From Weissella fangxianensis (lineage in GTDB: Bacteria > Bacillota > Bacilli > Lactobacillales > Lactobacillaceae): 64,000 nt of DNA. The position numbers and the translations under genes are program-made. The stretch covers positions 1-64,000 of the forward strand of contig NZ_JAMXDB010000007.1 of assembly GCF_024718545.1 (NCBI RefSeq), read 5' to 3'. The notes beneath the pieces were generated by a model, which did no database searches, had not been told where the DNA came from, and saw only the letters and a list, made by a program, of their open reading frames with translations. Shown here one piece after another: positions 14,451-37,617 of the stretch. Position 1 is the stretch's first letter. Each line of letters begins with the position of its first letter.

Positions 14451-14479
14451 GATATAAATTCTCCCTTCGTCCATATTGG

Positions 14480-14600
14480 AATATGAAACTAACTCCGTGG
14501 AAACTACCGACACGCCCCACAAGGCTCCATGGCAATGGGCCTCGTGGCAATGCTGCCGGGTGTGTCGCAACCTCCCACATCATTGCTCGTCAATGGCACA
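14480..14600 (-). promoter_or_regulatory. S10-operon leader RNA (L4-responsive type)
   Basis: On the minus strand the sequence GACACACCC (about 14558-14566) pairs with GGGCGTGTC (about 14509-14517). The enclosed region contains AGCATTGCCACGAGGC and CATGGAGCC. This matches the conserved core of the S10 leader of Bacillus and other Firmicutes, through which L4 represses the operon. A small hairpin CATATT/AATATG (14472-14485) lies just before the rpsJ ribosome-binding site. I see no other gene in 14451-14870. Confidence 0.75.
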
Positions 14601-17469: not shown

Positions 17470-18037
17470 TATCGATTTGATTTCCTAGTATTTGTGCCAT
17501 ATCAAATGCATCCCCACCATCTTCGCCATAGTAATGCGCTTTTCGCCGGACAATTTGGAATCCTAACCGTTCATACAGCTGCTGTGCCCGCTTGTTAGAT
17601 ACACGCACTTCTAAAGAAATACGGTGAAAATTAATTTGTTGTGCGATTGTCATCATGTACATCACCAGAAAGGTACCGACACCGCGGCTTTGCCAATGTG
17701 GCGCAACCATAATATTGGTAATGTGGACCTCATGGATGCCTGGGCGAAAAGCCGCCCCAATCAACGCCACCATTGAACCTGTTTCAGGCTGACGTACAAT
17801 CACATATAACCGATCACGTGTTCGCCGTAATTCTTCAGTAAATGCCGACATTGGCCATAAAACTGTATCATTATAGGCAGCTTTCTCAAGCGCCATAATA
17901 TCTTCTAAATCTGAATGCTTGGCTGGCATTAAATCAAATTCAAAATCTTTAATAACAATTTTTTGTCGAAATTCCCGCATCTCCTCTGATACAGGTTTAT
18001 CCCACCAATGAACTAATTGATTAAACTTTTTCCACAT
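17453..18037 (-). CDS. rimI: GNAT acetyltransferase, RimI-like with N-terminal extension
   Basis: 194 residues from MWKKFNQLVHWWDKP. This start lies inside the 3' end of tsaB (17-base overlap) and has AAGGTGG eight bases upstream. The first 45 residues are an extension rich in Trp and charged residues. The GNAT domain follows, with acetyl-CoA loop QSRGVGTFLV and LEVRVSNKRAQQLYERLGFQ then RRKAHYYGEDGGDAFDM. It probably modifies a ribosomal or other protein N-terminus. The symbol is by synteny with tsaB and tsaD. Confidence 0.85.
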   Translation of the reverse strand: MWKKFNQLVHWWDKPVSEEMREFRQKIVIKDFEFDLMPAKHSDLEDIMALEKAAYNDTVLWPMSAFTEELRRTRDRLYVIVRQPETGSMVALIGAAFRPGIHEVHITNIMVAPHWQSRGVGTFLVMYMMTIAQQINFHRISLEVRVSNKRAQQLYERLGFQIVRRKAHYYGEDGGDAFDMAQILGNQIDNELLI

Positions 18038-18746
18038 AGGCGTGCCCACCTTGATCCTCTGGATGTGCCTTCGCCCAATCGGCCTCTGCTTGTGATAGGC
18101 GATGATAATTTGGCACAAATTGATGAATATCATTCATGTCGGTTAACTTCGTACTGTCCTGTGCTAAGCTCACCATGTTAGCTGCATGTGGCAAGTTATC
18201 TTGCGCAAACGTTGCTGCTGGGAATAATTCACGTAATTGGTCTTCAAAACGTTGCCACTCACCAACAAAAATAAGTGGTTGTTGCATCGTTTCTAATGCG
18301 GTATGCAGTTTATCAATATTCATATGTTTATCAGGCTGACGTACAACTAGACGGCCTAACTCCCATTGATACTGCGCAGCATAGATGTTTTGATTGCGAG
18401 CATCCATAATAGGTACAATGATGGCATTCGTATCTGTCACGTTAGCTGCTAATAATGCCAAGCTTGAAATACCTGTTAATGAGATATTTAGTGTGAAGGC
18501 AAGTGTCTTAGCTGTTGTCACTGCAATACGTAACCCAGTATATGAACCTGGGCCTTGACTAACAATGACATTGTCTAAATCCTGTGGTGTCCAATTGGCT
18601 TGCTTTACCAACTCATCAATAAAAGGTAATAGTTGGGTTGAGTGGTTACGGCGTACATTAGTTTCACGTTGATCAATTAATTTATCATCCTCAAATAATG
18701 CAACGCTCAAAGGTTGATTGCTTGTATCAAAAGCAATGGTTTTCAT
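18021..18746 (-). CDS. tsaB: tRNA threonylcarbamoyladenosine biosynthesis protein TsaB
   Basis: 241 residues. Inactive ASKHA-fold partner that scaffolds TsaD. Seen: MKTIAFDTSNQPLSVALFED, QGPGSYTGLRIAVTTAKTLA and GISSLALLAANV, all conserved in TsaB. It heads a four-gene operon with two RimI-like acetyltransferases and TsaD. A possible promoter (TTGATT, 16 bases, TAAAAT) lies at about 18795-18822 on the minus strand. Confidence 0.95.
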   Translation of the reverse strand: MKTIAFDTSNQPLSVALFEDDKLIDQRETNVRRNHSTQLLPFIDELVKQANWTPQDLDNVIVSQGPGSYTGLRIAVTTAKTLAFTLNISLTGISSLALLAANVTDTNAIIVPIMDARNQNIYAAQYQWELGRLVVRQPDKHMNIDKLHTALETMQQPLIFVGEWQRFEDQLRELFPAATFAQDNLPHAANMVSLAQDSTKLTDMNDIHQFVPNYHRLSQAEADWAKAHPEDQGGHAYVEKV

Positions 18747-18825
18747 ATCAACTAGCTCCTCTACTTGTGAAATACTAATACCTATTTTACCGCAATTTTA
18801 ACAGAACAACACTGCTAATCAAGCA

Positions 18826-18957
18826 AGAGTGTGAACAAAAATGGGTTGAAGCCGGTGTGTAACGTTGTTTACGTCATTTTTGGCCATAGCGAAGCGTCGG
18901 CCGGGAATGGCGTAAATTGCGTTACATTGAGGCTTCAGTTTTTGTGAGCACGTTTAA
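18826..18957 (+). repeat. Structured intergenic element, copy 1 (subfamily A)
   Basis: A unit of 132 bases running from AGAGTGTGAACAAA to GAGCACGTTTAA. It folds into one long hairpin. The outer GTG/CAC and ACAAA/TTTGT stem encloses TTGAAGCC/GGCTTCAG. The inner arms, TGTAACG...GGCC and GGCC...CGTTACA, are 28 bases each with 21 Watson-Crick and about 4 U-G pairs on the plus strand. The loop contains AGCGAAGC. Related copies are at 18957, 31561 and 37463. Confidence 0.85.
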
Positions 18958-19087
18958 GAGTGTGAACAAATGCGGGTTGAATTCGGGTGTAAGGCTGTTT
19001 AGGATAATTTTGTTCGTAGCAACGCGAAGACCAGGATTATTCTAAATTGACTTACATTGAGAATTCAGCTTTTGTGAGCACGTTTAA
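18957..19087 (+). repeat. Structured intergenic element, copy 2 (subfamily B)
   Basis: It directly follows copy 1 in the same orientation, with the same ends and length. The stem sequences differ, but pairing is kept: TTGAATTC with GAATTCAG, and TGTAAG...TTTAGGATAATTTTG with CAGGATTATTCTAAA...CTTACA (about 19 Watson-Crick and 4 G-U pairs of 25). The loop holds GTAGCAACGCGAAGAC. It is nearly identical to the copy at 31561. Confidence 0.85.
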
Positions 19088-19089
19088 GA

Positions 19090-19127
19090 AGAGTGTGACA
19101 AAAGGCGTTTTGAAACCGGCCGTGAGC
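19090..19127 (+). repeat. Structured intergenic element, truncated copy 3
   Basis: The first 35-40 bases of the unit (AGAGTGTGACAAAAGGCG, then TTTTGAAACCGG) recur immediately after copy 2 and then lose similarity. It looks like a third tandem copy that was truncated. Confidence 0.6.
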
Positions 19128-19136
19128 CAATCTATA

Positions 19137-19211
19137 TCACTTGCGTCGCCACTGTCGTACAAATAACCAAATTCCTAAGATAATAGCCAAACAAACCAGG
19201 ACAATATCCAT
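19137..19211 (-). CDS. Possible 24-aa membrane peptide
   Basis: ATG-initiated frame encoding MDIVLVCLAIILGIWLFVRQ followed by a WRRK tail. This is one hydrophobic helix with a basic end, the layout of small membrane proteins and type I toxins. An AAAGG sits only two bases before the ATG, which is too close for a good site. The frame lies between the galE terminator and the repeat array. There is no database support and no clear antisense RNA; it may be a chance frame. Confidence 0.3.
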   Translation of the reverse strand: MDIVLVCLAIILGIWLFVRQWRRK

Positions 19212-19224
19212 GACCTTTCTTAAA

Positions 19225-19283
19225 TAAAAAAGACCAATGTCTCCGTACTTGAACGATTATTCAAGATACTTCATACATTGATC
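19225..19283 (-). terminator. galE terminator
   Basis: On the minus strand GATCAATGT (19275-19283) pairs with ACATTGGTC (19232-19240), enclosing a second CTTGAA/TTCAAG hairpin. A T6 tract follows. It starts 14 bases after the galE stop. Confidence 0.75.
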
Positions 19284-19296
19284 TATTGTTTACTGC

Positions 19297-20289
19297 TTAC
19301 CGATCACCATAACCATTTGGATGGGTTTGATGCCAGTTCCAAGCGGTACTAATAATTTCTTTCACATCATCATAATTAGGTTCCCAGCCAAGGACTTCGC
19401 GTGCCTTGTCTGATGAAGCAACCAATGAATCAGGGTCACCAGCGCGACGAGGAGCAACTTCAGCAGGAATTGGTTGACCAGTTGCTTCACGCGCAGCTTC
19501 TACCATTTGCTTAACTGAGAAACCATTAGCTGATCCCAAGTTAAACTGATTTGACTCATTACCCTTAGCTAGATAATCCAAAGCCAACACATGTGCATCG
19601 GCCAAGTCCATCACATGTACATAATCACGGACGTTAAAACCATCTGGCGTATTATAATCATCACCAAACATCATGATCTTCTCACGTTGACCCAAAGCTG
19701 TTTGCAAAATAATTGGTACCAAATGCGTCTCAGTTGGGTGGTCTTCACCAATTGAGCCATCAGCCTTAGCTCCTGCGACGTTAAAGTAACGCAAAGCAAC
19801 CCACTTTAATCCATAAGCTTGATCAGCCCACTTCATAATGTGCTCCATTTGTAACTTTGATTCACCATAAGGATTGATTGGATTTTGTGGCGTTGTTTCC
19901 TTAATAGGATTTTCCTTAGCCACACCATATGTTGCAGCTGTTGATGAGAAGACAATTTGCTTCACATCAAAGTCCAACATCACTTCCAACAAGTTAATCA
20001 TACCGTAAACGTTGTTATCGAAGTACTTTAATGGCTTTTCAACAGATTCCGGTACGATTGAAGAAGCTGCAAAGTGAACAACTTGATCAATATTTTCCTT
20101 TTCAAACACTTCAGTCAATGCTGCCTTATCACGAATATCAACTTCGTAAAATGGCACCCCCTCAGGTACTGAAGCACGATGTCCCGTCAACAAATTGTCA
20201 ACAACAACAACGTCACGATGGTCAGCTAGTAACGTAGCTACCATATGAGAACCAATGTAGCCAGCTCCCCCTAATACTAATACAGACAT
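19297..20289 (-). CDS. galE: UDP-glucose 4-epimerase
   Basis: 330 residues, an extended short-chain dehydrogenase. It interconverts UDP-galactose and UDP-glucose for the Leloir pathway and cell-surface glycan synthesis. Seen: NAD-binding GGAGYIGSH (about 7-15), catalytic SSTAATYG and YGESK (Tyr-x3-Lys), and [28 protein letters not shown] precedes the ATG. No other Leloir genes are adjacent. It follows the thioesterase gene by 39 bases and may share its transcript. Confidence 0.96.
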
Positions 20290-31560: not shown

Positions 31561-31693
31561 CAGAGTGTGAAGAAAAGGCGCTTTGAATTCGATTGTAAGG
31601 CTGTTTAGGATAATTTTGTTCGTAGCAACGCGAAGAACAGGATTATTCTAAATTGCCTTACATTGAGAATTCAGCTTTTGTGAGCACATTTAA
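31561..31693 (+). repeat. Structured intergenic element, copy 4 (subfamily B)
   Basis: It begins one base after the pepF stop codon. Over the middle 100 bases it is nearly identical to copy 2 (18957-19087), with the same arms TTGAATTC/GAATTCAG and TTTAGGATAATTTTG/AGGATTATTCTAAA and the same loop GTAGCAACGCGAAGA. It ends TTTTGTGAGCACATTTAA. Confidence 0.85.
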
Positions 31694-31694
31694 T

Positions 31695-31740
31695 CAGAGT
31701 GTGAAGAAAAGCGCTTTGAATTCGGTTGTAAGGCTGTTCC
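31695..31740 (+). repeat. Structured intergenic element, truncated copy 5
   Basis: The first 45 bases of the unit (CAGAGTGTGAAGAAAAGCGC, then TTTGAATTCGG and TGTAAGGCTGTT) repeat right after copy 4 and then stop. This repeats the tandem full-plus-truncated layout seen at 18826-19127. Confidence 0.7.
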
Positions 31741-37378: not shown

Positions 37379-37416
37379 AAAAAAGAGGTTGGGACAAAAC
37401 AACGTTCCCAACCTCC
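37379..37416 (-). terminator. Terminator of the iron alcohol dehydrogenase gene
   Basis: GAGGTTGGGA (37406-37415 on the minus strand) pairs with TCCCAACCTC (37385-37394), followed by TTTTTT. It lies beyond repeat copy 6, so the element would again be inside the 3' UTR. Confidence 0.85.
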
Positions 37417-37462
37417 TTTGTGCTAAAAATGTATTAATTATAAGGCTATAAATTTTATAGCA

Positions 37463-37592
37463 TAAACGCGTTCCAAAAGTCTGAAGCCTCAATGTAACGC
37501 AATTTACGACATTCTTGTCCTTCGCTTTGCTTCGGCCAAAAATGACGCAAATAACGTTACACACCAACTTCAAAGCGACTTTTTCCTCGCTC
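37463..37592 (-). repeat. Structured intergenic element, copy 6 (subfamily A)
   Basis: On the minus strand the unit runs from GAGCGAGGAAAAAGTCGC to CTTTTGGAACGCGTTTA. It shares TGTGTAACGTTATTTGCGTC, TTTTTGGCC and TAAATTGCGTTACATTGAGG with copy 1, plus the loop GAAGCAAAGCGAAGGAC. The hairpin pairing is kept despite changes. It lies 26 bases after the alcohol dehydrogenase stop in the same orientation as that gene. Confidence 0.8.
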
Positions 37593-37617
37593 CCTTTCTC
37601 AACTACCAATAATTATT

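Follow-up and report, generated by a model that had tools for sequence, protein, structure and literature searches.

Small intergenic repeats with strong predicted hairpins are known from a number of bacteria. BOX, RUP and SPRITE of Streptococcus pneumoniae are modular elements of this kind (boxB being repeated). They are over-represented between convergent genes and inserted into one another, with one BOX lying between T-box leaders, and BOX and RUP are reported to have target duplications and to resemble the ends of resident IS elements (PMC3049150). REPs are described as being of 20–40 bp and as carrying GTAG or CGTC tags (PMC2817692, PMC3733652). A survey of 40 bacterial genomes describes Efa-1 of Enterococcus faecalis as a family of 163-nt stem-loops, and assigns to L. 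johnsonii, the Lactobacillus of the survey, one family, Lac-1, which is marked genic (PMC2267715).

In the current analysis we have characterised a family of hairpin units encoded in a stretch of 64,000 nucleotides of Weissella fangxianensis, referred to here as the window, which is the whole of the DNA presented. The units are similar to BOX, RUP and SPRITE in being intergenic, strongly folding and modular, and in their association with T-box leaders. Unlike BOX and RUP, with which they have been compared by description only, they are without visible target duplication or partner IS, each unit consists of one hairpin whose inner stem is free, and their range spans several families of the order. 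As extragenic palindromes in high copy they also resemble REPs and BIMEs, from which they differ in length (about 117–132 nt instead of 20–40 bp) and in having the ends AGAGYG and RCRTTTA/RCGTTTA in place of a GTAG or CGTC tag. The Y1 class of transposases recognises its target as a folded single strand. Unlike the REPs with their RAYT, the units are not accompanied by a detectable Y1 transposase (PF01797) in the genome of the window (G000) or in the genomes G001, G018 and G023.

With Efa-1 the units share an intergenic location, folding, a copy number in the tens and a host of the same order. The two families are comparable rather than demonstrably identical; a search with model R2, which is described below, over 150 kb of the E. 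faecalis record NZ_CP143580.1 gave 0 matches (E ≤ 1). This record of 747 kb is filed as a plasmid and carries usual chromosome genes (ribosomal proteins, men, nrd). The EFAR repeats are another possible comparison system for E. faecalis. The attC sites of integrons comprise conserved outer and inner boxes and a free tip, act as one folded strand and are organised in head-to-tail arrays. Conserved boxes, a free tip, one folded strand and head-to-tail arrays are found in the units as well. They differ from attC in that their modules contain no genes, since none has been found between the arms (R-gene-R') among 79 R-R' pairs, and in that the attC core motif was not seen at the unit ends.

Small interspersed hairpin repeats are a known kind of element. 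What is new in the present family is its distribution over a whole order, its combination of a fixed base with a free inner stem, and the evidence that selection acts on a single strand, and no description of the element was found in the open literature searched. It is probably a non-autonomous mobile palindrome with a BOX- or REP-like lifestyle, forming a gene-free family of the Lactobacillales in which the folded plus strand would be the recognised form. The evidence for this reading consists of dispersal, presence and absence at sites, opposite orientation, swapped units, tandem arrays, decay by deletion and selection on the plus strand.

Hairpin units in the window

The earlier note on this DNA had described two full units and one truncated unit standing head to tail between tsaB and galE. 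They are present on the plus strand at 18825–18956, 18956–19086 and 19089–19126. The two full units, with covariance model scores of 137.9 and 125.5 bits, share an identity of 76% over 103 nt at a spacing of 130, and the second is by eye very like another full unit of the plus strand (31561–31692, 124.2 bits) that has a co-oriented stop codon 2 nt upstream. The truncated unit is a terminal 5' partial of 38 nt, referred to as R. A second terminal R on the plus strand (31696–31738) is nearly identical to the 5' end of the unit at 31561. A further full unit (139.4 bits) is encoded on the minus strand at 37463–37594. It is accompanied by an A+T-rich spacer module (37416–37462, minus strand; TGCTATAAAATTTATAGCC...TTTTTAGCAC), of a type found after many single units, and 3' of the spacer by a terminator-like hairpin (37385–37415, minus strand; GAGGTTGGGA...CCCAACCTC), both of which were read directly from the sequence. 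The window has four full units and two 5' partials in total, and the estimate of five or six copies made previously was right.

The reading frames neighbouring the array, 18021–18746 and 19297–20289 (putative tsaB and galE, in the names of the earlier note), are both on the minus strand, so that the plus-strand hairpins of the array are antisense to any read-through. In a consensus scan of 18600–19350 neither a promoter-like site of the plus strand nor a terminator-like site was encountered, the stretch after R included.

Unit anatomy and covariation

Units of the window's genome are 128–132 nt long. The ends of the family are AGAGYGnGA and GARCRCGTTT, the own-genome units having RCRTTTA/RCGTTTA at the 3' end. 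Starting from the ends, three helices succeed one another, the short basal one separated from the second by a UGA/GAR internal loop and the second from the third by a bulge around CGnTT; beyond a further internal loop most units have the box TGTAA/TTACA, and the hairpin is completed by a long inner stem and its loop. The UGA/GAG internal loop noticed earlier near the base is readily recognised (GUG-UGA...GAG-CAC). The base of the hairpin is conserved across genera and its internal loops are asymmetric, and the sequence of the inner stem is free to vary through paired changes. The loop AGCnAnGCG, which had been regarded as conserved, is nearly invariant in the 28 aligned units of the own genome; it is a feature of this type of unit, and units read from other genera have other loops.

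The consensus structure of the 28 own-genome units comprises 45 pairs. Two-sided changes are seen in 27 of them and amount to 137 cells, compared with a mean of 35.8 for shuffled alignments, with 0 of 500 shuffles as high. In other genera 42 of the 45 pairs have two-sided changes (1414 cells, 0 of 500 shuffles as high), as counted on 123 distinct rows in an alignment that was fitted to the model itself.

Array organisation has been analysed for 72 full units from own-genome loci, parts of G018 and some loci of G023 and G001. Only units scoring above 70 with the own-genome profile are considered in these statistics, which leaves out more divergent arrays (L067, L080). The 72 units form 66 arrays, with one unit in 61, two in four and three in one. 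A terminal R, made up of the first 30-odd bases of a unit, closes 24 of the arrays; most of those that lack it run on into the A+T-rich spacer. In 9 of the 24 the terminal R is best matched by the first unit of its own array, over all foreign units. The share of foreign units that outscore the own first unit has a mean of 17%, to which the array of the window, at 84%, is an exception. Half units have been considered as a separate element and rejected, as in L003, L024 and L028 a CATTTTT common to both marks the junction of unit and spacer, which by eye suggests deletions.

Fold and strand bias

Each full unit had been proposed to fold into a single long hairpin, and this is borne out by the energies. 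Plus-strand RNA folds of the first and second units of the array reach -66.6 and -49.5 kcal/mol (z -10.2 and -7.6), those of the minus strand -40.0 and -25.9 kcal/mol, and 0 of 200 shuffles are as stable in each of the four folds. The plus fold is more stable than the minus fold in 72 of 72 units, with a mean gain of 20.7 kcal. The same is true of 85 of 85 distinct units of other genera (mean gain 13.2 kcal), which were taken from named loci and selected by end motif and a plus-strand energy cut.

The excess of U-G over A-C on the plus strand, to which the earlier note had drawn attention, is strong, with 399 G-U and 25 A-C cells over 48 consensus pairs of the 72 units. When 40 pairs obtained by folding the minus strand are used for the same units, 109 G-U and 23 A-C cells are counted. 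Contexts in which both flanking genes run against the element have 137 G-U and 7 A-C cells. One-sided changes at A-T-dominant pairs are 27 to G-U versus 3 to A-C in the window's genus and 19 versus 10 in other genera; at G-C-dominant pairs the corresponding counts are 77 versus 21 and 30 versus 13. The bias of one-sided changes is weaker in other genera than in the genus of the window.

C-to-T strand damage is ruled out as the whole cause of the wobble bias, because the bias is present at A-T-dominant pairs and also where both flanking genes are opposed. Transcription of host genes is without power to explain a bias that persists where the neighbouring genes run opposite. Selection on the plus-strand fold, not acting through transcription of neighbouring genes alone, is supported. 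Rare pair types, seen at most twice, are even (27 G-U and 25 A-C), and resident copies may therefore be under little selection. In DNA, too, G-T is better tolerated than A-C, so that RNA and single-stranded DNA are both possible as the folded form.

Range and copy number

The genome of the window has 41 DNA matches at E ≤ 10, and at least 36 matches are listed by the covariance model after removal of antisense echoes. Model R1, built from the 28 own-genome units (alignment A1), identifies the element in 9 of the 28 genomes of the genus, the own genome included, and in 103 of 397 genomes and 19 of 40 genera of the family, where 8 candidates were scored in each genome. The model R2 was derived from 125 matches in named loci of other genera and identifies the element in 60 of 395 genomes and 25 of the 80 sampled genera of the order (9 candidates scored), distributed in the families f1, f2, f5, f7 and f8. 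Six loci read from f5 and one from f2 keep the ends and the layout; the f8 locus is without the GTTT end. Seven selected genomes gave at least 150 matches of R2 in three cases and 140, 129, 101 and 88 in the others, antisense echoes possibly being included.

A pattern scan of named genomes revealed 70 stretches, encoded only in Paucilactobacillus, Lacticaseibacillus, Secundilactobacillus and Lentilactobacillus; being of the lactobacilli type, the pattern does not pick up units of the window's type. One unit is matched by fourteen plasmid records of Pediococcus and Lacticaseibacillus, with no gene listed under the unit in a table that covers protein-coding and resistance genes only. Plasmid searches with the region 18746–20289, a three-unit array, a query from another family and a composite of the window's genus yielded no lead. 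No match in phages was obtained with one lactobacilli-type query or one query from another family, nor in viral contigs with the lactobacilli pattern.

Placement relative to genes

With genes called by a simple ORF rule, 22 of the 66 arrays lie between convergent genes, 15 run with tandem genes, 25 against them, 3 are flanked by divergent genes and one is gene-less on one side. Where the gene on the 5' side is co-oriented, the array starts at most 35 nt from its stop codon (35 of 37 cases). A perfect inverted repeat of at least 8 bp follows within 150 nt downstream in 46 of the 66 arrays, the corresponding figure for random stretches being 38 of 500. Among the arrays of the named loci in other genera, 17 run with the neighbouring genes, 15 against, 13 are convergent and 9 divergent, 13 more being situated at locus edges. 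Nine of 30 co-oriented arrays in these loci overlap the upstream frame by 2 bases, which is expected if the TGA of the element itself is the stop codon of the upstream gene. At L267 (5842–5860) and other sites the TGAGCG of the element appears to supply the upstream stop, and an element-free relative uses another stop.

These placements bear on the reading of the units as structured RNAs with a cellular job, either as small RNAs or at the 3' ends of mRNAs, where they would act in stability, RNase III processing or termination, with dispersal as a secondary matter. It draws on the strong covariation and the conserved internal loops, on the location of units directly 3' of stop codons, often with a terminator-like hairpin, and on the near-neighbour one-sided changes, in which Watson-Crick/G-U exceeds Watson-Crick/A-C by 96 to 24. 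We nevertheless consider it unlikely, since arrays show no orientation preference in tandem genes in either of the two sets given above, sites differ between sister species, the consensus scan gave the array of the window no plus-strand promoter-like site, and 19 of the 28 genomes of the genus have no match. The functional RNA argued for previously is upheld as far as selection on the folded plus strand is concerned. A discrete plus-strand RNA at this locus is not indicated, as neither a promoter-like nor a terminator-like site was found there, and an RNA function of its own does not follow from the strand bias of units that are without clear orientation preference, differ in their sites and are swapped. 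A single-locus regulatory RNA is ruled out by the many copies, the site differences between sister species and the placement statistics.

The mobile palindrome favoured here is also encountered within other hairpins. In genus g20, putatively Secundilactobacillus, a T-box leader has a unit in the loop of its next stem after Stem I, and because of the inserted unit the Rfam T-box match reaches only 63 bits (threshold 93). The T-box stem-loop sites displayed comprise 8 with a unit, always in the plus direction, and 8 unfilled ones, G254 having one of each. Two T-box leaders about 2.8 kb apart in L141 (71–451 and 2885–3269, 63 and 59 bits) each have a unit in the loop after Stem I. In G022 (L100–L106, L046, L054) a larger palindrome with the arms ACACCTTGGTCATTTT.../...AAAATGACCAAGGTGT encloses the unit together with a second hairpin in 9 of the 10 copies read, several of them near contig ends; such nesting fits the taste of the element for hairpin loops. 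IS-like ends, GGGTTCAGTTCA, cut a unit and a terminator-like hairpin 3' of a unit in L021 and L007.

Candidate mobilisers

Reverse transcriptase (PF00078) was not detected in G000, G001, G018 and G023, the genomes in which the Y1 transposase was also sought, and IS110 (PF01548) was not detected in G000, G001 and G023. Mobilisation from within the window's genome by RAYT/IS200, by a retron or group II element, or by IS110 is ruled out on these grounds. Among the 28 genomes of the genus Y1 is encoded in three (G003, where the element is present, G005 and G016) and PF00078 in three (G009, G016 and G019). PF01548 is encoded in G018 and G021, both of which have the element, and in six genomes without a listed element match.

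Short non-coding repeats with terminal inverted repeats are a trait of MITEs, and the units are of this kind. An ordinary MITE would be a double-stranded element with imperfect terminal inverted repeats bound by the DDE transposase of a resident IS, the fold being a by-product. The repeated occurrence of the units, their rarity between divergent genes and the joint recurrence of unit, spacer and terminator-like hairpin agree with such an element. It would require neither the wobble strand bias nor the conserved difference between the left and right sides of the loops. No target duplication is visible between filled and empty T-box loops or at one L. zeae/L. chiayiensis site, empty sites differing by a few bases, and no IS with the ends of the unit was met in an analysis short of a systematic survey of IS ends or DDE transposases. 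An ordinary MITE is therefore quite unlikely. The earlier note had set its RNA against an IS, MITE or REP family with target duplications and no strand-biased wobble pairs; the outcome is divided, as the repeat is dispersed, the wobble bias is present and target duplication is not visible.

Gain, loss and exchange

Seventeen own-genome sites with both flanks alignable in the fetched parts of the sister species G018 have been compared by eye. Nine of the gaps in G018 are element-free, including that of the window array, four contain remnants, in one case next to a run of N, and four are filled, two of these holding the element in opposite orientation.

Allelic series have been identified in plasmids as well. 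In Lacticaseibacillus paracasei the manXYZ gap, between the mannose-PTS IID gene and the DUF956 gene, has two units and a remnant in NZ_CP044239.1, one unit in NZ_CP080337.1 and only a remnant of about 40 nt in five other plasmids read (8 records found). The chromosomal gap, by eye, has one unit, two, or one and a partial in five related genomes and none in about ten. In the sorbose-PTS operon gap of two L. paracasei plasmids the units share an identity of 76.4%, the flanks on either side (404 and 276 nt) being 99.8 and 98.9% identical. The unit of a Pediococcus inopinatus plasmid is 97.5% identical to one of these two, and an 11-nt remnant is found in two L. plantarum plasmids read (four found). 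In a further gap the inner arm has been lost at a GCGGT repeat. Several element-free plasmid alleles are deletion remnants, and the plasmid series does not separate gains from losses. The site differences between sister species, taken with the modular swaps and deletions of units, are the behaviour of a mobile repeat.

It may also be supposed that no transposition takes place at present, and that old repeats change by homologous recombination, gene conversion and palindrome deletion only. Different units at one place, as in the sorbose-PTS gap, are in line with this, unequal recombination and deletion at short homologies could explain the allele series, and no mobiliser has been found among Y1, reverse transcriptase and IS110 in G000, G001 and G023. 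The opposite orientation of units in shared gaps and their presence in gaps that are empty elsewhere require insertion at some time, and this supposition is in our view distinctly improbable.

Possible mode of multiplication

For the mobile palindrome, which we regard as the probable reading, the conserved hairpin base would serve as the recognition site, the inner stem being free to change if still paired. The folded plus strand, as single-stranded DNA in replication or transfer or as RNA, may be recognised and multiplied, and movement would be provided in trans by a candidate recombinase. New copies may settle beside or inside other hairpins and directly 3' of stop codons, where they would do least harm, and could bring or replace a terminator. 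Arrays are likely to grow when a copy inserts next to a unit already in place or when units recombine unequally.

A more far-reaching and doubtful possibility is that the units are gene-free hairpin cassettes, each no more than a conserved folded base with a free tip, which a candidate recombinase would capture, stack head to tail and exchange, in the form of single-stranded DNA or RNA, throughout the order. If true, this would be a mobile element whose only cargo is the fold itself.

The element provides a natural test system for the mobilisation of small palindromes, in which its free inner stem, its fixed base and a measurable selection on one strand distinguish the recognised form from passive copies. 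As units occur at the 3' ends of genes, within an operon gap and inside T-box leaders, they are of importance when terminators and leaders are annotated, and the element could serve in strain typing.

Rfam matches

The repeat has dozens of matches in food-relevant lactobacilli and is present in 25 of the 80 sampled genera, yet it is without an Rfam model. In the whole window no Rfam family matches a unit at the gathering threshold, in agreement with the previous statement that no named lactic-acid-bacterial RNA family known to its author fits. The best match in 18700–19300, up to E 10, is mir-8515 with 25.7 bits (threshold 100), and 19 loci of other genera, searched up to E 0.01, gave no family at threshold on a unit.

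Other families have been identified in the neighbourhood of units. A SAM-III riboswitch (61.6 bits, threshold 45) is encoded at 991–1096 of L136, near two oppositely oriented units, and at 662–756 of L145, beside a unit, the RatA RNA antitoxin is weakly matched (43.5 bits, threshold 49). The window itself encodes an S10-Clostridia ribosomal leader on the minus strand at 14464–14591, with 38.4 bits against a threshold of 35.1.
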